Shown in pieces: positions 23,891-32,214 of a stretch of DNA of 64,000 nucleotides. Positions within the stretch are counted from its first letter, which is position 1. Every line of letters begins with the position of its first letter. The DNA lies in contig NZ_CP020384.1 in NCBI RefSeq assembly GCF_002073975.1, forward strand, positions 1,674,001 through 1,738,000, read 5' to 3'. The position numbers and the translations under genes are program-made. The notes under the pieces were generated by a model, which worked only from the letters and a program-made list of their open reading frames with translations, searched no databases and was not told the DNA's origin. Source of the DNA: Rhodovulum sp. MB263. Lineage in GTDB: Bacteria; Pseudomonadota; Alphaproteobacteria; Rhodobacterales; Rhodobacteraceae.

Positions 23891-25306
23891 TTGACCCGCT
23901 ATCCGCGTGATCTTCGGGGCTATGGCGCGACGCCGCCCCACCCGCAATGGCCGAACGGCGCCAAGATCGCCGTGCAATTCGTCATCAACTACGAGGAGGG
24001 CGGCGAGAACTGCATCCTGCATGGCGATGCGGCCTCCGAAGCCTTCCTGTCCGAGGTCGTGGGCGCGGTGCCCTGGCCGGGCCAGCGCCACTGGAACATC
24101 GAGTCGATGTACGAATATGGCGCCCGGGCCGGGTTCTGGCGGCTTCACCGCATGTTCACCGAGCGCGACATGCCGGTCACGGTCTATGGCGTGGCGACGG
24201 CGCTGGCGCGCGGGCCCGAACAGGTGGCCGCGATGCAGGAGGCCGGCTGGGAGATCGCCAGCCACGGGTTCAAATGGGTCGAATACAAGGACTTCTCGGA
24301 AGAGGAAGAGCGCGCCCATATGGCCGAGGCCAGGCGGCTGCATGCCGAGGTCACGGGCGAGGCGCCGCGCGGCTGGTACACGGGGCGCTGTTCGGCGCAG
24401 ACCGTGCGGCTTGCGGCCGAGGATGGCGGTTTTGCCTATGTCTCGGACACCTATGACGACGATCTGCCCTACTGGATGGCCGTGGGCGACCGGCATCAGC
24501 TGGTGATCCCCTATACGCTCGATGCCAATGACATGCGCTTTTCGGTGGCGGCGGGCTATGGCTCGGGCGACGAGTTCTATGCCTATCTCCGCGACAGTTT
24601 CGATACGCTTTATGCCGAGGGGATTGCCGGCGCGCCTAAGATGATGACCGTCGGGCTGCATTGCCGCCTGGTGGGACGGCCCGGACGGGCGGCGGCGCTG
24701 AAGCGGTTTCTCGACTACATCCGGGGCTTCGACGGGGTCTGGGTCGCGCGGCGGATCGACATCGCCGAGCATTGGGCGGAGGTCCATCCGCCGGTCGTCC
24801 GGGAACGGCCCACGGCGATGGACCGCGACAGCTTCGTCGCGCGGTTCGGGGGCATCTTCGAACAGTCGCCCTGGATCGCCGAGGGCGCCTTCGGGCTCGA
24901 GCTTGGCCCCGCGCATGACAGCGCGCCGGGGCTGCATAACGCCCTGGCGCGGGTGTTCCGCGCGGCCGGGCCCGGGAAACGGCTGGAGGTGCTGAAGGCG
25001 CATCCGGATCTGGCGGGCAGGCTCGCGGCCGCGAAACGGCTGAGCGAGGCCTCGACCGCCGAGCAGGCCTCGGCCGGGCTCGACGCGCTGAGCGACTCGG
25101 ACCGCGCGCGTTTCGAGGATCTGAACCGCCGCTATACCGAGCGCTTCGGCTTTCCCTTCATCATCGCGGTGAAGGATCACGACAAGGCGGGCATCCTCGC
25201 GGCCTTCGAGCGCCGGCTTGAAAACACCCCCGAGGCCGAATTCGCCGAGGCCTGTCGTCAGGTCGAACGGATCGCGCTGCTGCGCCTGAAGGAGATCCTG
25301 CCATGA
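23891..25306 (+). CDS. puuE: Allantoinase PuuE fused to OHCU decarboxylase
   Basis: Bifunctional protein of 471 residues. Residues about 1-305 match PuuE, the polysaccharide-deacetylase-fold allantoinase (MTRYPRDLRGYG start, FVINYEEGGENCILHGD, EIASHGFKW). Residues about 308-471 match OHCU decarboxylase: MDRDSFVARFGGIFEQSPWIAE, the catalytic His in AHPDLAGRLA (His371), the EQASAGLD motif (Glu391, Gln392) and FGFPFI at 419-424. Thus one chain carries out OHCU to S-allantoin and S-allantoin to allantoate, in reverse order along the chain. The start is a TTG with a perfect AAGGAGG seven bases upstream; no better ATG exists. It overlaps the next gene by ATGA. Confidence 0.93.
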   Translation: MTRYPRDLRGYGATPPHPQWPNGAKIAVQFVINYEEGGENCILHGDAASEAFLSEVVGAVPWPGQRHWNIESMYEYGARAGFWRLHRMFTERDMPVTVYGVATALARGPEQVAAMQEAGWEIASHGFKWVEYKDFSEEEERAHMAEARRLHAEVTGEAPRGWYTGRCSAQTVRLAAEDGGFAYVSDTYDDDLPYWMAVGDRHQLVIPYTLDANDMRFSVAAGYGSGDEFYAYLRDSFDTLYAEGIAGAPKMMTVGLHCRLVGRPGRAAALKRFLDYIRGFDGVWVARRIDIAEHWAEVHPPVVRERPTAMDRDSFVARFGGIFEQSPWIAEGAFGLELGPAHDSAPGLHNALARVFRAAGPGKRLEVLKAHPDLAGRLAAAKRLSEASTAEQASAGLDALSDSDRARFEDLNRRYTERFGFPFIIAVKDHDKAGILAAFERRLENTPEAEFAEACRQVERIALLRLKEILP

Positions 25307-26130
25307 GCCAGTATTACGCCCCGACCGGCGGGCTTCCGGGGCAGGAGGTCCTGCATACCGGCCGCGCTGTCTTCACCGAGGCCTATGCGGTCATTCCCAA
25401 AGGCGTGATGAGCGACATCGTCACCAGCAATCTGCCGCATTGGACGGGCACGCGGGCCTGGATCATCGCGCGGCCGATGACGGGCTTTGCCGAGACCTTC
25501 GCGCAATATGTGATGGAGGTGGGCCCCGGCGGCGGGTCCGACCGGCCCGAGCCCGATCCGGGCGCCGAAGGGGTGATCTTCGTCACCGAGGGCGGGCTCG
25601 ATCTCAGGCTCGGCGGGCACGCGCATCACATGACGGCGGGGGGCTATGCCTATCTGCCGCCGGGCTCCGGGTGGACGGTCGCGAATTCGGGCACGGTGCC
25701 CGCGCGGTTCCACTGGCTGCGCAAGCGCTATCAGGCGGTCGAGGGCATCGCGCCGCCCGAGGCCTTTGTCACCAACGAGGCCGCGGTCGCACCCAATGCC
25801 ATGCCCGACACCCAGGGGCGCTGGGCCACCACGCGCTTCGTCGATCCGGACGATCTGCGCCATGACATGCATGTCAATATCGTCACCTTCGAGCCGGGCG
25901 GCGTGATCCCCTTCGAGGAGACGCATATCATGGAGCACGGGCTTTACGTGCTCGAGGGCAAGGCGGTCTACAAGCTCAACCGCGACTGGGTCGAGGTCGA
26001 GGCGGGCGATTTCATGTGGCTGCGCGCCTATTGCCCGCAGGCCTGCTATGCCGGCGGGCCGGGACGGTTCCGCTATCTGCTCTACAAGGACGTGAACCGC
26101 CATCCGGCGCTTGCGCTCGGGGCGCTGTGA
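25303..26130 (+). CDS. allE: (S)-ureidoglycine aminohydrolase (bicupin, AllE/UGHY family)
   Basis: Releases ammonia from S-ureidoglycine to give S-ureidoglycolate. The 275-residue protein has two cupin domains; the second carries the manganese-binding core ETHIMEHGLYVLEGKAVY and the very conserved stretch DFMWLRAYCPQACYAGG with the glutamine ligand, and the family C-terminus LLYKDVNRH. Databases sometimes label this family bifunctional allantoicase/ureidoglycine aminohydrolase, but no allantoicase domain is visible. Start ATG overlaps the preceding stop (ATGA) and its stop shares a base with the next ATG (TGATG), so it is translationally coupled on both sides. Confidence 0.92.
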   Translation: MSQYYAPTGGLPGQEVLHTGRAVFTEAYAVIPKGVMSDIVTSNLPHWTGTRAWIIARPMTGFAETFAQYVMEVGPGGGSDRPEPDPGAEGVIFVTEGGLDLRLGGHAHHMTAGGYAYLPPGSGWTVANSGTVPARFHWLRKRYQAVEGIAPPEAFVTNEAAVAPNAMPDTQGRWATTRFVDPDDLRHDMHVNIVTFEPGGVIPFEETHIMEHGLYVLEGKAVYKLNRDWVEVEAGDFMWLRAYCPQACYAGGPGRFRYLLYKDVNRHPALALGAL

Positions 26131-26615
26131 TGATCGAGGCCCAGCCGCTGACCGCGGCCGGTTTCGCGCCCTTCGGCGAGGTCATCGAAACCGGCGGCGA
26201 TTTCAAGCTCATCAACGAGGGCTTCTGTCGCCGCTATTCCGATCTCGCCCGGCTCGACATCGTCGACGGGCAGCCCGGGATCAGCCTGTTTCAGGCCGAG
26301 ATCCGGGCGCTGCCCTGTGAGTGCACGCTGATGGAGCGGCACCCGTTGGGCTCGCAATGCTTCATTCCCATGCAGAATGCCGAATTTCTGGTCATTGTGG
26401 CGCCGGATGAAGGGGGGCGGCCGGGCCGGCCCTCGGCCTTCATTGCCGGTCCGGGGCAGGGGGTGAATATCGGCCGGAATGTCTGGCACGGCGTGTTGTG
26501 TCCGATTTCGGGCTCTGGGCTCTTCGCCGTTATCGACCGTATCGGCGCGGGGGCCAATCTGGAAGAGGTCCGTCTGAAGACGACGCTGACGATAAGGCGC
26601 GCGCGGCCGGGCTAG
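26130..26615 (+). CDS. allA: Ureidoglycolate lyase
   Basis: Splits S-ureidoglycolate into glyoxylate and urea, the last step of the pathway. The protein has 161 residues, as usual for AllA (about 160). Motifs that identify it are FAPFGEVIETGG near the start, FQAEIRALPCECTLMERHPLGSQ in the middle (His and Glu of the active site), and GPGQGVNIGRNVWHGVL. I start at the ATG at 26130, which shares its A with the upstream stop codon, rather than at an upstream in-frame codon inside allE. Confidence 0.93.
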   Translation: MIEAQPLTAAGFAPFGEVIETGGDFKLINEGFCRRYSDLARLDIVDGQPGISLFQAEIRALPCECTLMERHPLGSQCFIPMQNAEFLVIVAPDEGGRPGRPSAFIAGPGQGVNIGRNVWHGVLCPISGSGLFAVIDRIGAGANLEEVRLKTTLTIRRARPG

Positions 26616-26645
26616 GCAAGTAACGACGACGGGGAGATTTCGACG

Positions 26646-28082
26646 ATGGCTGCAGACAGCTCCATCGGGACGCCGGATCAGCTGCGCGACCCGAACTATA
26701 CGCCTGCGCTTCACAAGGCAGTGCCGCTGGGGATCCAGCATGTGCTGGCGATGTTCGTTTCGAACGTGACGCCGGCGATCATCGTCGCGGGGGCCGCGGG
26801 CTTCGGCTTCGGGTCCGAGGCGGGGGCCGAGGGCTTCCCCGACATGACCTACATGATCCAGATGTCGATGCTGTTTGCGGGGATCGCGACGCTGTTCCAG
26901 ACCATCGGTCTGGGCCCGGTGGGCGCGCGGCTGCCGATCGTGCAGGGCACGAGCTTTGCCTTCATCCCGATCATGATCCCGCTGGTTGCGGGCAGAGGCG
27001 TCGAGGCGTTGCCGATGCTGTTCACCGGCGTCTTCGTCGGCGGGCTGTTCCACGCCATGCTGGGCACGGTAATCGGCAAGATCCGCTTCGCGTTGCCGCC
27101 GCTTGTCACCGGGCTCGTGGTGACCATGATCGGGCTCGCCCTGGTCAAGGTCGGCATCCAGTATGCCGCGGGCGGCGTCGCGGCGATCGACAGCCCCGAA
27201 TATGGCAGCCTGCTGAACTGGTCGGCGGCGCTGGTCGTGGTCTTCGTCACGCTGGGGCTGAAATTCTTCGCGCGCGGGCTGTTGTCGGTCTCGGCGGTCG
27301 CGGTGGGCATTCTGGCAGGCTATCTCTTCGCGCTCGCGACGGGCATGGTGACCTTTGACAGTATCGGCGCCGGCTGGCAGCGCGCGGCCGTGCTGGAGGT
27401 GCCGCTGCCGTTCAAATACGGGGTCGATTTCAGCCTCGCCGCCATCATCGGGTTCTGCCTGATGGCCGTGGTCTCGGCGGTCGAGACCGTGGGCGATGTC
27501 TCGGGCATCACCAAGGGCGGTGCCGGGCGCGAGGCCACCGACCGCGAGATTGCGGGGGCGACCTATGCCGATGGTGTGGGCACGGCCATCGCCGGTGCCT
27601 TCGGGGCGCTGCCCAACACCTCCTTCAGCCAGAATGTGGGCCTGATCGCGATGACCGGGGTGATGAGCCGGCATGTGGTGACCATCGGGGCGCTGTTCCT
27701 GATCCTCTGCGGCGTGGTGCCCAAGGTCGGCGCGCTGATCGCGACGGTCCCGATCGAGGTCCTGGGCGGCGGCGTGATCGTCATGTTCGGCATGGTGGTC
27801 GCCGCCGGCATCTCGATGCTGTCGGATGTCAACTGGAACCGGCGCAACATGGTGATCTTCGCGATCGCGCTGTCGGTCGGGCTCGGCCTGCAGCTTGAAC
27901 CGAAAGCGGTGCAATACCTGCCCGATACCTTGCAGATCCTGATGACCAGCGGGCTCTTGCCCGCAGCGCTGATCGCCATCGTCCTGAACCTGGTGCTGCC
28001 CGGAGAACTGGCTTCGGAGGCGACCGAAGAGGTCTCGGGCGGCCTTTCGGGGCATGGGCTCGGACATCTCGGGCGGGACTGA
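26646..28082 (+). CDS. NCS2-family purine (xanthine/urate) permease
   Basis: Proton-coupled importer of 478 residues with about fourteen hydrophobic segments. The NCS2 signature is clear: the TM8/TM10 region ALPNTSFSQNVGLIAMTGVMSR, whose QNxGxxxxT pattern marks the purine (not uracil) branch, and AVETVGDVSGIT with the conserved glutamate. Given its place directly behind the uricolytic genes, urate or xanthine is the likely substrate. It is 30 bases from allA, with a ribosome site GGGGAG before the ATG, and a hairpin follows its stop. Confidence 0.92.
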   Translation: MAADSSIGTPDQLRDPNYTPALHKAVPLGIQHVLAMFVSNVTPAIIVAGAAGFGFGSEAGAEGFPDMTYMIQMSMLFAGIATLFQTIGLGPVGARLPIVQGTSFAFIPIMIPLVAGRGVEALPMLFTGVFVGGLFHAMLGTVIGKIRFALPPLVTGLVVTMIGLALVKVGIQYAAGGVAAIDSPEYGSLLNWSAALVVVFVTLGLKFFARGLLSVSAVAVGILAGYLFALATGMVTFDSIGAGWQRAAVLEVPLPFKYGVDFSLAAIIGFCLMAVVSAVETVGDVSGITKGGAGREATDREIAGATYADGVGTAIAGAFGALPNTSFSQNVGLIAMTGVMSRHVVTIGALFLILCGVVPKVGALIATVPIEVLGGGVIVMFGMVVAAGISMLSDVNWNRRNMVIFAIALSVGLGLQLEPKAVQYLPDTLQILMTSGLLPAALIAIVLNLVLPGELASEATEEVSGGLSGHGLGHLGRD

Positions 28083-28101
28083 GCCTGCCGCGACCTGACA
28101 G

Positions 28102-28126
28102 ACAGGGCCGCCTCGGGTGGCCCTGT
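28102..28126 (+). terminator. Hairpin after the purine permease gene
   Basis: Arms ACAGGGCC (28102-28109) and GGCCCTGT (28119-28126) are perfectly complementary around a 9-base loop, 20 bases after the permease stop. The following bases are TCCGTATTTT, a weak T-run, so an intrinsic terminator is likely though not ideal. Confidence 0.65.
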
Positions 28127-28279
28127 TCCGTATTTTACAACTGCAGTTTTTCCGCTATGTCCTTGGCTTGGAAATACTCGCTAAAGTTGTTGCATATATT
28201 TTAGGCATCCGCATTTTTGTTGCGCGTTCGGTGAGGGGAAATCATTGCCGGTGCCACAGGGTGGACATAGCGTTAAGCC

Positions 28280-29704
28280 ATGAACGAGAGCCAGACCTTC
28301 GACGAGATGTGGGGCCGCGCACAGGTTCTGCGGTCGCCCTATGAGCGTTTTCACGAGTGGTTCGAGGGTGAGGACATCGCCCGGTTGCGCGCCAAGCAGC
28401 GCGAGGCCGAAGAGGTGTTTCGCCTGACCGGCATCACTTTCAATGTCTATGGACGGGCCGAGGCCGAGGAGCGGCTGATCCCCTTCGACATCATCCCGCG
28501 GATCATCTCGGGGCGCGAATGGCAGAAGCTGTCGCGCGGGATCGAACAGCGGGTGAAGGCGATCAACGCCTTTCTCTATGACATCTATCACCGCCAGGAG
28601 ATCGTGAAGGCGGGCCGCATCCCCGAAGAGATGATCTCGCGCAACGAGGCCTTCCTGCCGCAGATGATCGGGGTCAAGCCGCCGGGGGGCGTCTATACCC
28701 ATATCGTCGGCATCGATCTGGTGCGTACGGGCGACAACCAGTTCTATGTGCTGGAGGACAATGCCCGCACGCCCTCGGGTGTCAGCTACATGCTGGAAAA
28801 CCGCGAGACCATGCTGCAGATGTTCCCCGAGCTGTTCTCGCGCAACCGGGTGCAGCCGGTGCAGACCTATCCGCTCGATCTGCGCCGTTCGCTGGCGGCC
28901 TGTGCGCCCCCGGATGTGGACGAGAAGCCCACCATCGCGGTGCTGACGCCAGGGATCTACAACTCGGCCTATTTCGAGCATGCCTTCCTGGCCGACCAGA
29001 TGGGGGTGGAACTGGTCGAGGGGCAGGATCTTCGCATCGTCGGAGGCAAGGTCGCGATGCGCACGACCGAGGGCTACCGGCCGATAGACGTGCTCTATCG
29101 CCGGGTCGACGACGACTATCTCGACCCGCTGAACTTCAATCCCGACAGCGCGCTGGGGGTCCCGGGCATCATGGATGTCTACCGGGCGGGGCGGATCACC
29201 ATCGCCAATGCGCCCGGCACCGGCATCGCCGATGACAAGGCGATCTACAGTTACATGCCCGACATCGTCGAATTCTATACCGGCGAGAAGGCGATCCTCG
29301 AGAACGTGCCGACCTGGCGCTGTTCCGAACCCGAGGCGCTGGCCTATGTGCTCGACAACCTGCAGGATCTGGTCGTCAAGGAGGTGCATGGCTCTGGCGG
29401 CTACGGCATGCTGATCGGCCCGACCTCGACCCGAAAGGAAATCGCGGCCTTTCGCGACAAGCTGAAGGCCAGGCCCGGCAATTACATCGCCCAGCCGACG
29501 CTGTCGCTCTCGACCGTTCCCATCTTCACCCGGAACGGGCTGGCGCCACGGCATGTCGATCTGCGTCCCTTCGTGCTGGTCAGCCCCGCGGGCATCAAGA
29601 TCACCCCCGGCGGGCTGACCCGGGTGGCGCTGAAGAAGGGATCGCTTGTGGTGAACTCGTCGCAGGGCGGAGGCACCAAGGACACCTGGGTGCTCGAGGA
29701 CTGA
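28280..29704 (+). CDS. Circularly permuted ATP-grasp protein
   Basis: Protein of 474 residues of the circularly permuted ATP-grasp type 2 family, proposed to form amide bonds in peptide-like products; no member's product is firmly known to me. Recognisable blocks are GITFNVYGR near residue 50, IPRIISGREW, the FYVLEDNARTPSGVSYMLENR segment (metal-binding Glu-Asp-Asn) near residue 160, LVVKEVHGSGGYGML (nucleotide-binding Lys) near 370, and the C-terminal GLTRVALKKGSLVVNSSQGGGTKDTWVL. It starts an operon with alpha-E, transglutaminase-like and Anbu genes. The 5' leader is A+T-rich and probably holds the promoter; the ATG has no good ribosome site. Confidence 0.9.
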   Translation: MNESQTFDEMWGRAQVLRSPYERFHEWFEGEDIARLRAKQREAEEVFRLTGITFNVYGRAEAEERLIPFDIIPRIISGREWQKLSRGIEQRVKAINAFLYDIYHRQEIVKAGRIPEEMISRNEAFLPQMIGVKPPGGVYTHIVGIDLVRTGDNQFYVLEDNARTPSGVSYMLENRETMLQMFPELFSRNRVQPVQTYPLDLRRSLAACAPPDVDEKPTIAVLTPGIYNSAYFEHAFLADQMGVELVEGQDLRIVGGKVAMRTTEGYRPIDVLYRRVDDDYLDPLNFNPDSALGVPGIMDVYRAGRITIANAPGTGIADDKAIYSYMPDIVEFYTGEKAILENVPTWRCSEPEALAYVLDNLQDLVVKEVHGSGGYGMLIGPTSTRKEIAAFRDKLKARPGNYIAQPTLSLSTVPIFTRNGLAPRHVDLRPFVLVSPAGIKITPGGLTRVALKKGSLVVNSSQGGGTKDTWVLED

Positions 29705-29708
29705 CGCG

Positions 29709-30650
29709 ATGCTGGGCAAGACCGCAAACGGGCTCTTCTGGATGTACCGCTATATCGAGCGGGCCGAAAACACCTCGCGCCTGGTCGAGACCGGCCAGCG
29801 CATCGCGCTGACCCGGCTCGACAGCCCCGATGACGAATGGGGCTCGGTGATGCAGACCGGGGGCGTGGCCAAGGCCTACAAGCGCCATCACGAGGCGGTC
29901 ACCAAGGAAGGTGCCATCGACTGGATGCTGCGCGCCAAGGAGAACCCTTCCTCGGTGCTCTCGGCCATTTCCTCGGCGCGGCAGAATGCCCGCGTGGTCC
30001 GCACCGCGCTGACCCATGATGTCTGGGAGGCGATGAACGGCTGTTACATGGCGGTGCGGGAGGCGCTGTCGCGCCGGGTGAACGAGCGCGACCTGCCTGC
30101 GGTGATCGACCTGATCAAGGATCGCACCGCGCTGGTGCGCGGCACCACGCAGGGCACGCTGCTGCGAAACGACATCTTCAATTTCGCCCGGATCGGCACA
30201 TTCCTCGAACGCGCCGACAACATCGCCCGCATTCTCGACGTCAAGTATTACGTGCTGCTGCCCTCGACCTATTCGGTGGGCTCGTCGATCGACAATGTGC
30301 AATGGGAGACGATCCTGCGCGCGGTCTCTGCGCGGGGCGGGTTCCGGATGGTGCATGGCAGTCAGGCCAGCCCGCGCGATATCGCCCAGTTCCTCGTGCT
30401 CGACCGCAAGATGCCGCGCAGCCTCGAATTCTCGGTCACCAAGATCCGCGACAATCTCGAATATCTCGCCCTCGACTACGGCGCGCGCCACCGCTCTCAT
30501 GAACTGGCCGAGGTGCTCAAGCAGCGCTTCAGCGCCCATGATATCGATGCGATCTTCGATTACGGCCTGCATGAATTCCTGCAGGACGTGCTGGGCGCGC
30601 TCAGCGAGCTCGGTCGGCAGATCGAGATAGATTACAGATTCTACGAGTGA
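29709..30650 (+). CDS. Alpha-E domain protein
   Basis: All-helical protein of 313 residues of the alpha-E family (DUF403), which constantly occurs next to circularly permuted ATP-grasp genes. The start MLGKTANGLFWMYRYIERAENTSRL is diagnostic of the family, with a second conserved block FARIGTFLERADNIARILDVKY near residue 160 and a C-terminal DYRF. Biochemical role is unknown; the glutamate-rich helices (RYIERAENT and LERADNIAR) suggest a metal- or ligand-binding site. It starts four bases after the ATP-grasp stop with GAGGA upstream. Confidence 0.92.
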   Translation: MLGKTANGLFWMYRYIERAENTSRLVETGQRIALTRLDSPDDEWGSVMQTGGVAKAYKRHHEAVTKEGAIDWMLRAKENPSSVLSAISSARQNARVVRTALTHDVWEAMNGCYMAVREALSRRVNERDLPAVIDLIKDRTALVRGTTQGTLLRNDIFNFARIGTFLERADNIARILDVKYYVLLPSTYSVGSSIDNVQWETILRAVSARGGFRMVHGSQASPRDIAQFLVLDRKMPRSLEFSVTKIRDNLEYLALDYGARHRSHELAEVLKQRFSAHDIDAIFDYGLHEFLQDVLGALSELGRQIEIDYRFYE

Positions 30651-30654
30651 TCCG

Positions 30655-31449
30655 ATGCGACTGAAGATACGCCATTCCACGCGCTACGCCTTCGACGACC
30701 CGGTGATCTACGGGCTCCAGCAATTGCGCAAGACCCCCAAGAACGGCCCCGAGCAGCGGGTGATCGCCTGGAAGACCACGGTCGAGGGCGGTCGCAAGGA
30801 GCTGAGCTTTGAGGACCATCACCGCAACACGGTCGAGCTGATCAGCTTCGAGAAGGACGTGACCGAGCTCGTGGTGCGCAGCGAGGGCGAGGTCGAGGTG
30901 CTGGACACCTCGGGCGTGATCGGTCCGCATCGCGGTCCCTCGCCGCTCTGGCTGTTCCGCCATCCCACCGCCCGGACCCGGGCCGGGCCGGGCTGCCGGG
31001 CGCTGATGCGCGAGGTGAGGGGCGAGAACGATCTCGACCGGCTGCATGCGCTGCTGCGGGTGGTGCATGGCGCGGTCCGCTATGAGATCGGGGCCTCGCG
31101 TCCCGACTGGTCGGCCGAGGAGGCTGTCTCGGCGGGCCGGGGGGTGTGTCAGGATCATGCCCATGTCTTTGTCGCCTGCGCCCGCGAGATGGGCTTTCCA
31201 GCCCGCTATGTCTCGGGCTATCTGATGACCGACGACGTCCAGCACGAGGCGAGTCATGCCTGGGCCGAGGCGCATGTCGAGGGCCTGGGCTGGGTCGGGT
31301 TCGATGTGTCGAACGAGATGTCGCCGGACGGGCGCTATGTCCGGGTCGCGACCGGCCTCGATTATGCCGAGGCCGCGCCGGTGACCGGCTCGCGCCTTGG
31401 CGGCAGCGGCGAGGCGCTGTCGGTCGAGATCGAGGTGGCCCAGCAATAG
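30655..31449 (+). CDS. Transglutaminase-like cysteine protease family protein
   Basis: Protein of 264 residues with an N-terminal beta-rich domain (residues 1-90, MRLKIRHSTRYAFDDPV) and a transglutaminase core with the Cys-His-Asp triad: Cys in GRGVCQDHAHVFV (about residue 165), His in EASHAWAEAHVEGLGW and Asp in VGFDVSN. Such proteins usually act as peptidases or amide-transferring enzymes. No signal peptide is seen, so it works in the cytoplasm. It begins four bases after the alpha-E stop and precedes the Anbu gene by 33 bases. Confidence 0.92.
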   Translation: MRLKIRHSTRYAFDDPVIYGLQQLRKTPKNGPEQRVIAWKTTVEGGRKELSFEDHHRNTVELISFEKDVTELVVRSEGEVEVLDTSGVIGPHRGPSPLWLFRHPTARTRAGPGCRALMREVRGENDLDRLHALLRVVHGAVRYEIGASRPDWSAEEAVSAGRGVCQDHAHVFVACAREMGFPARYVSGYLMTDDVQHEASHAWAEAHVEGLGWVGFDVSNEMSPDGRYVRVATGLDYAEAAPVTGSRLGGSGEALSVEIEVAQQ

Positions 31450-31482
31450 CGCTGGCGCGCGGATGCGGGGACTGGGACGGCA

Positions 31483-32214
31483 ATGACCTATTGTGTGGGG
31501 GTGATGCTCGAGCGCGGGCTGGTGATGATGTCGGATACCCGCACCAATGCCGGCGTCGACAACATCTCGACCTTCCGCAAGATGTTCACCTGGGAAAAGC
31601 CCGGCGACCGGGCGCTGGTGCTGATGACCGCGGGCAACCTGGCCACCACCCAATCCGTGGTCTCGATCCTCGACGAGCGCACCAAGGCCCATGTCGAGCG
31701 CGATCCCTCGCTGTTCGAGGTGCCCTCGATGTTCCAGGCGGCGCGGCTGGTGGCCGCCACGCTGAAGGACGTGATCGCCGCCCATGCCGATGTCGGCCAG
31801 CGGGCCGATGCCTCTTTCAATGCGACGCTGATCCTCGGCGGCCAGATCAAGGGCGGTGCGCCGCGGCTGTTCCTGATCTATCCCGAGGGCAATTTCATCG
31901 AGGCCGGCAGCGACACGCCCTTCTTCCAGATCGGCGAAACCAAATATGGCCGACCCATCCTGGTGCGGGCCTATGATCCGGGCATGAGCTTCGAGAAGAT
32001 GGTCAAGCTGATGCTGGTCAGCTTCGATTCCACGCTCAAGGCCAATCTCTCGGTGGGCATGCCCTTCGATCTGCAGATCTACGAGACCGACAGCCTGCAG
32101 CTTGGCCGTCGCATCCGGATCGATCCGCAGGACGCCTATTTCGAGCGGATCTCGACCGGCTGGGGCGAGGCCCTGAAATCCGCGCTCGACAGTCTGCCGG
32201 ATTTCGAATTCTGA
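31483..32214 (+). CDS. Anbu, proteasome-like peptidase
   Basis: Protein of 243 residues of the Anbu (ancestral beta-subunit) family of N-terminal nucleophile hydrolases, related to HslV and proteasome beta subunits. The N-terminus MTYCVGVMLERGLVMMSDTRTNAGVDNIS is characteristic: after removal of Met the Thr becomes the nucleophile, Asp18 and Arg20 of SDTRT are family residues, and a Lys at position 33-34 (FRKMFTW) is the expected general base. Published Anbu particles form open spirals and their substrate is not known. Co-transcription with ATP-grasp, alpha-E and transglutaminase-like genes is a recurrent arrangement and suggests that it trims or recycles a peptide made by them (inference). 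Confidence 0.93.
   Translation: MTYCVGVMLERGLVMMSDTRTNAGVDNISTFRKMFTWEKPGDRALVLMTAGNLATTQSVVSILDERTKAHVERDPSLFEVPSMFQAARLVAATLKDVIAAHADVGQRADASFNATLILGGQIKGGAPRLFLIYPEGNFIEAGSDTPFFQIGETKYGRPILVRAYDPGMSFEKMVKLMLVSFDSTLKANLSVGMPFDLQIYETDSLQLGRRIRIDPQDAYFERISTGWGEALKSALDSLPDFEF

Follow-up and report, generated by a model that had tools for sequence, protein, structure and literature searches.

The stretch of DNA analyzed here (the window) comprises 64,000 nucleotides of Rhodovulum sp. MB263 and carries, at positions 28280 to 32214, a copy of the Anbu operon, whose four genes encode a circularly permuted ATP-grasp protein, the all-helical Alpha-E protein, a transglutaminase-fold protein (TG), and the proteasome-related subunit Anbu. 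We tentatively propose that this operon is an amide-bond module which is switched on by nitrogen shortage in many Pseudomonadota and whose product TG and Anbu open or trim. Nitrogen shortage would lead many Pseudomonadota to activate the operon via a sigma-54 promoter before the ATP-grasp gene; the ATP-grasp protein, together with Alpha-E, would join a carboxylate to an amine, spending ATP; TG and Anbu, where present, may open or trim the product; and the cell could thereby make and reclaim a nitrogen-containing conjugate. As the product, a small molecule appears slightly more likely than a protein modification.

The four genes lie on one strand, with intergenic gaps of 4, 4, and 33 base pairs (bp):

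28280..29704, + strand: circularly permuted ATP-grasp protein, 474 amino acids (aa); Pfam CP_ATPgrasp_2, E=7e-168; PDB 3n6x, E=5.2e-190
29709..30650, + strand: Alpha-E protein, 313 aa, all-helical; Pfam Alpha-E, E=3.6e-83
30655..31449, + strand: TG, 264 aa; Pfam Bact_transglu_N, E=4.8e-19, and Transglut_core, E=9.9e-24
31483..32214, + strand: Anbu, proteasome-related subunit, 243 aa; Pfam Proteasome, E=6.7e-09; PDB 5loy, E=2.2e-88

An earlier reading of this DNA (the original prediction) had described a tight four-gene cluster that recurs in bacteria. Both points are borne out: Pfam and PDB matches agree with the families it named, and among 76 Anbu loci, each fetched with up to 20 kilobases (kb), the order ATP-grasp, Alpha-E, TG, Anbu is found on one strand in 50, far more than chance would give (the count permits intervening genes). 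The operon is confirmed as real and conserved, and it is already known as the Anbu operon (Valas and Bourne 2008 and Iyer et al. 2009, both as cited later; Fuchs et al. 2017; Piasecka et al. 2018). The window copy shares with the published operon the four families, their order, and the Thr nucleophile, with no difference in content; it differs in following purine-breakdown genes and in lacking a sigma-54 promoter.

Sigma-54 sites before the ATP-grasp gene

Sigma-54 promoters have the -24/-12 consensus TGGCAC-N5-TTGCW. We searched the 300 bp that precede the start of the ATP-grasp profile for this pattern, keeping GG and GC fixed; of 190 operons, 38 have a site with no more than one mismatch, against 1 of 190 for the reverse strand. 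Under the same threshold, sites precede 2 of 713 other genes, none of 193 Alpha-E genes, none of 29 fused ATP-grasp genes, and 1 of 34 large TG genes, and mononucleotide shuffles contain one in 0.8 of 191 sequences. With up to two mismatches allowed, 66 operons have a site, compared with 6 for the reverse strand, as do 3.8% of the other genes. In a phylum sample of 199 Pseudomonadota genomes drawn evenly, sites with at most one mismatch stand before the ATP-grasp gene in 16 of 41 families. Of the 190 operons, both those with Anbu at the locus (19/119) and those without it (19/71) carry such a site. NtrC-like sites with at most two mismatches lie upstream in 18% of the 38 promoter-bearing operons, 4.8% of 124 promoterless ones, and 2.5% of 400 controls, a contrast that vanishes at three mismatches (40%, 36%, and 22%).

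We take COG3484, a proteasome-type protease, to be Anbu. In a sigma-54 survey, COG3484 is among the entries enriched in the alpha, beta, and gamma groups (PMC12316311; this and the other papers cited by accession are represented by excerpts). In Pseudomonas putida, whose PP_2685 to PP_2688 belong to the same families by published annotation, growth on nitrate versus ammonium raises PP_2685 by 4.44 log2 and PP_2688 by 3.99 log2 (PMC8050072). Under nitrogen limitation, the promoter before PP_2688 (ATP-grasp) rises 3.7-fold while that before PP_2685 (Anbu) is unresponsive (PMC8050072), which fits a site before the first gene only. Induction of PP_2685 to PP_2688 under nitrogen limitation has been credited to NtrB/NtrC (PMC7801951; also PMC3325844), four genes of the Burkholderia cenocepacia cluster are 6.0- to 9.4-fold lower when ntrC is mutated (PMC5491218), and variation in these domains across marine metagenomes follows urea metabolism (PMC3597751). 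A term search of a nitrogen-starvation paper on Paraburkholderia phymatum gave no mention of the operon. The nitrogen link is thus not new in outline; what we add is the measured spread of the sites over families, placed before the ATP-grasp gene. For Anbu, a relative of the proteasome, a 2021 survey of proteasome homologues, in its excerpts, still gives no known function (PMC8665760); the present results narrow the search to nitrogen limitation. The product is most naturally sought in P. putida KT2440, whose operon is known to be nitrogen responsive.

Several observations weigh against a nitrogen-controlled amide-bond module. The window operon has no sigma-54 site, though its own genome has RpoN, and none of the seven operons sampled from its family, own copy included, has one at up to two mismatches; likewise, 12 Anbu genes unlinked to Alpha-E show no site at up to one mismatch and one at two. 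One P. putida data set has Anbu up by 1.12- to 4.81-fold and its three neighbors by 11- to 37-fold (PMC7801951). Purine genes, considered as conserved neighbors, were rejected because among the 76 Anbu loci they are matched in the window's own copy only. Finally, when the Yersinia bercovieri operon proteins were co-expressed, no specific interaction with Anbu was detected, according to the excerpts of that study (PMC6376114). By eye, no common upstream motif was seen in Rhodobacterales operons. Nitrogen control has been shown for the P. putida genes; as the window copy lacks a sigma-54 site, a nitrogen response of this copy can only be inferred.

ATP-grasp and Alpha-E form the constant pair

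The original prediction held that the helical protein always accompanies the ATP-grasp protein, and this was so wherever we examined it. Among the best 80 of 590 ATP-grasp matches (the named loci, mostly from Alphaproteobacteria), Alpha-E comes next after ATP-grasp in all 80; TG is present in 77 and Anbu in 59 within the fetched stretches, some of which end early. A further set of 51 loci (L220 to L270) comes from 40 genomes without Anbu and 11 with an unlinked Anbu, and here an ATP-grasp gene adjoins the standalone Alpha-E gene in 51 of 51, with TG directly next in 22. In nine loci of a class sample (192 genomes, partly overlapping the phylum sample), Anbu begins at most 400 bp after Alpha-E, leaving no space for TG between them; no Anbu is present at the loci of Rhizobium and Agrobacterium; and 11 of the 76 Anbu loci have Anbu without the other three. 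ATP-grasp and Alpha-E are therefore the constant pair, and TG and Anbu are optional members. No replacement for Anbu is common to the 21 named loci that lack it, as judged from a list of open reading frames made with no family search and with two of the stretches ending early.

The genome of the window organism carries, outside the window, a paralogous cluster (L119:4545-11327) in which TG is fused to DUF2126, a family that Pfam names 'putative amidoligase', ATP-grasp and Alpha-E are fused into one protein of 800 aa, and a further TG is encoded. This cluster has the ATP-grasp, Alpha-E, and TG families in common with the window operon; it differs in the ATP-grasp/Alpha-E fusion, the added putative amidoligase, and the lack of Anbu. 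Such a fusion suggests joint action of ATP-grasp and Alpha-E.

TG of the window has the residues of a Cys-His-Asp enzyme (Cys165, His201, and Asp217), in agreement with the original prediction. A need for TG catalysis throughout the family did not hold, since 13 of 181 operons encode a TG that lacks the catalytic Cys (3 of the 131 whose locus includes Anbu, 10 of the 50 whose locus does not). These Cys-less TG genes come from several lineages (L186, L187, L191, L192, L213, L220, and L228; also L244, L254, L257, L102, L290, and L294), with some clustering: three genomes of one genus, two Devosia, and two Burkholderia. The first sets showed a contrast: 10 of 41 operons whose locus lacks Anbu had lost the Cys, against 1 of 111 whose locus has Anbu. 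The single case is L102, whose Alpha-E sits in a long open frame and which was initially sorted with the fusion loci. A second sample gave 0 of 9 without Anbu and 2 of 20 with it; its Anbu-less part includes 5 of 15 stretches with no TG and one (L286) with TG on the opposite strand, and its 20 loci with Anbu were chosen for an Alpha-E-to-Anbu gap large enough to hold TG. We do not claim a coupling in which an active TG depends on Anbu, since the second sample failed to repeat the contrast and the losses cluster. ATP-grasp and Alpha-E should accordingly be treated as the working core, and TG catalysis should not be assumed to be needed.

Because TG is often missing or Cys-less and Anbu is often absent, the four genes do not form an obligatory cycle, and this bears on the central claim of the original prediction, that a small peptide is made, attached, removed, and degraded. 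That claim is an existing hypothesis rather than a new deduction, since two structural papers (PMC5666114 and PMC6376114) quote peptide synthesis and tagging as an idea of Iyer et al. 2009. ATP-grasp and Alpha-E would add an amino acid or peptide to proteins, and TG and Anbu would remove the tag or degrade the protein. Its parts list stands, in that the conserved set pairs an amide former with hydrolases, and the ring-like Anbu particle bears many Thr sites (PMC5666114). The losses of the TG Cys, three of them with Anbu at the locus, and the position of TG directly behind Alpha-E in just 22 of the 51 loci speak against it. So do published results: besides the lack of specific interaction, Anbu cut none of the peptide substrates tried (PMC6376114), and the excerpts on the Anbu operon report no tag. 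Fuchs et al. rated a peptide-synthesis role less likely (PMC5666114). Loss of TG together with the negative pull-downs therefore weakens the strict form of the tag cycle, and our analysis gives no evidence of a tag, isopeptide, or target protein. We regard the cycle as possible, if unlikely.

Genetic link between Anbu and Alpha-E

In the phylum sample, Anbu is found in 76 of 199 genomes and Alpha-E in 115; 75 genomes have both, 40 have Alpha-E alone, and a single genome (G094) has Anbu alone. The class sample gives a matching picture: 59 genomes have Anbu and 75 have Alpha-E, the two occur together in 58, and one genome (G312) has only Anbu. Both of the genomes with Anbu and no Alpha-E are drafts. 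Fisher p values for co-occurrence are 7.5e-24 (phylum sample) and 2.0e-32 (class sample), with shared ancestry ignored. Among the Alpha-E matches listed, which do not include some fusion paralogues, Anbu lies within 10 kb of Alpha-E in at least 64 of the 76 genomes, and in at least 59 of these Alpha-E precedes Anbu on a shared strand. Of 55 class-sample Anbu genes with at least 40% identity to that of the window, 42 are linked to Alpha-E, mostly as measured against standalone Alpha-E. The genetic link of Anbu to Alpha-E is firm. The original prediction had turned on interaction and a genetic link across genomes; for the first, the literature saw none, while the second is strong here.

A divergent Anbu group with 30 to 36% identity to the Anbu of the window (L118:9655-10347 and nine further genes) is unlinked to Alpha-E in 10 of 10 cases. 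The L118 protein matches all five Anbu-type PDB sequences.

Such genes would suit a second explanation, in which Anbu acts on its own as a protease that turns over proteins during starvation and shares an operon with the ATP-grasp set merely through timing. The many operons without Anbu, with no common replacement gene seen in the 21 named loci, fit this idea, as does the binding of proteasome inhibitors such as epoxomicin to Thr1 of Pseudomonas aeruginosa Anbu (PMC5666114). Shared timing alone, however, does not predict that Anbu occurs without Alpha-E in only 1 of 76 and 1 of 59 genomes, and standard substrates gave no activity in the excerpts of two studies (PMC6376114 and PMC5666114). An independent protease thus seems to us improbable.

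The four proteins and related systems

From its family, the ATP-grasp protein is likely an ATP-dependent amide-bond ligase. The closest named match is from Celeribacter persicus (Rhodobacterales), with an ATP-grasp protein 85% identical, and the Y. bercovieri ATP-grasp protein liberates phosphate from ATP (PMC6376114). A PDB sequence search returns a single solved relative, 3n6x, which was deposited as a 'putative glutathionylspermidine synthase'. Glutathionylspermidine synthetase/amidase, in which an ATP-grasp ligase and a Cys amidase make and cut a nitrogenous conjugate, is similar in outline; it differs in having no Alpha-E and no Anbu. No characterized glutathionylspermidine synthetase was matched: searching PDB with a profile (E<=10) recovered 3n6x and, by chance, a ribosomal sequence and nothing else, and Pfam at E<=1 gives no match to a glutathionylspermidine synthetase family.

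Alpha-E has no relative in a PDB sequence search. An AlphaFold2 model built from 71 sequences has helices throughout, with a mean predicted local distance difference test (pLDDT) score of 91.2 and a predicted template modeling (pTM) score of 0.90; compared with PDB folds, it gives 192 matches at E<=10, of which the best has E=0.18 and none reaches E<=0.001. Sixteen columns are invariant among the 71 sequences, including Arg24, Arg91, Arg98, Glu167, and Arg174. TG has a PDB relative, 3isr (E=3.1e-13).

Anbu begins Met-Thr and, as the original prediction had it, belongs with the Thr-nucleophile proteasome relatives: the Met-Thr start and Thr2, Asp18, Arg20, and Lys33 (Met counted) are conserved in 42 of 42 aligned relatives, and the protein carries the Thr1, Asp17, Lys32(33) set of Y. 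bercovieri Anbu. Five distinct PDB sequences match it at E<=3.3e-68 over nearly its full length, three deposited as Anbu (including the designed Anbu 5loy) and two as 'Peptidase'. Solved Anbu relatives form an open, helical particle (PMC5666114). Judged by eye alone, all four proteins lack signal peptides, as had been predicted.

We take connectase to be a relative of Anbu. In a further and somewhat longer shot than tagging or an independent protease, ATP-grasp and Alpha-E would form a two-protein ligase that Pseudomonadota at large make in nitrogen shortage, its partner having a fold unseen in solved structures; a nitrogenous conjugate would be opened or transferred by a specialized Anbu, perhaps as a connectase-like transferase, and TG would serve as a non-catalytic binding subunit in some lineages.

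Neighborhood of the operon

A role in making some specialized peptide, be it a natural product or a signal, in place of one in nitrogen economy would suit the patchy presence of Alpha-E (115/199 genomes) but is quite improbable, as no transporter, carrier-protein, or precursor-peptide gene recurs near the 76 Anbu loci, the commonest extra neighbors are a large TG type (14/76) and a generic ABC-ATPase (11; all others at most 6, groups named by eye), and sigma-54 control better suits nitrogen.

Directly upstream of the operon, window positions 23891 to 28082 hold purine-breakdown genes for an OHCU decarboxylase/deacetylase-type fusion, a cupin, ureidoglycolate lyase, and a xanthine-type permease, the last assigned to the xanthine/uracil family by Pfam. 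A conserved purine link was rejected on the named loci as well, where one allantoinase match was found, at the edge of 1 of the 80. A pattern match between the permease gene and the operon marks a possible terminator, in a window with 9 such sites against 4.9 expected:

28101..28127, + strand: terminator-like hairpin, 12 pairs

At two loci of one bacterial family (f27; L071:10360-13011 and L078:6850-9471), a lone Anbu gene adjoins a gene judged by eye to be mutS-like.

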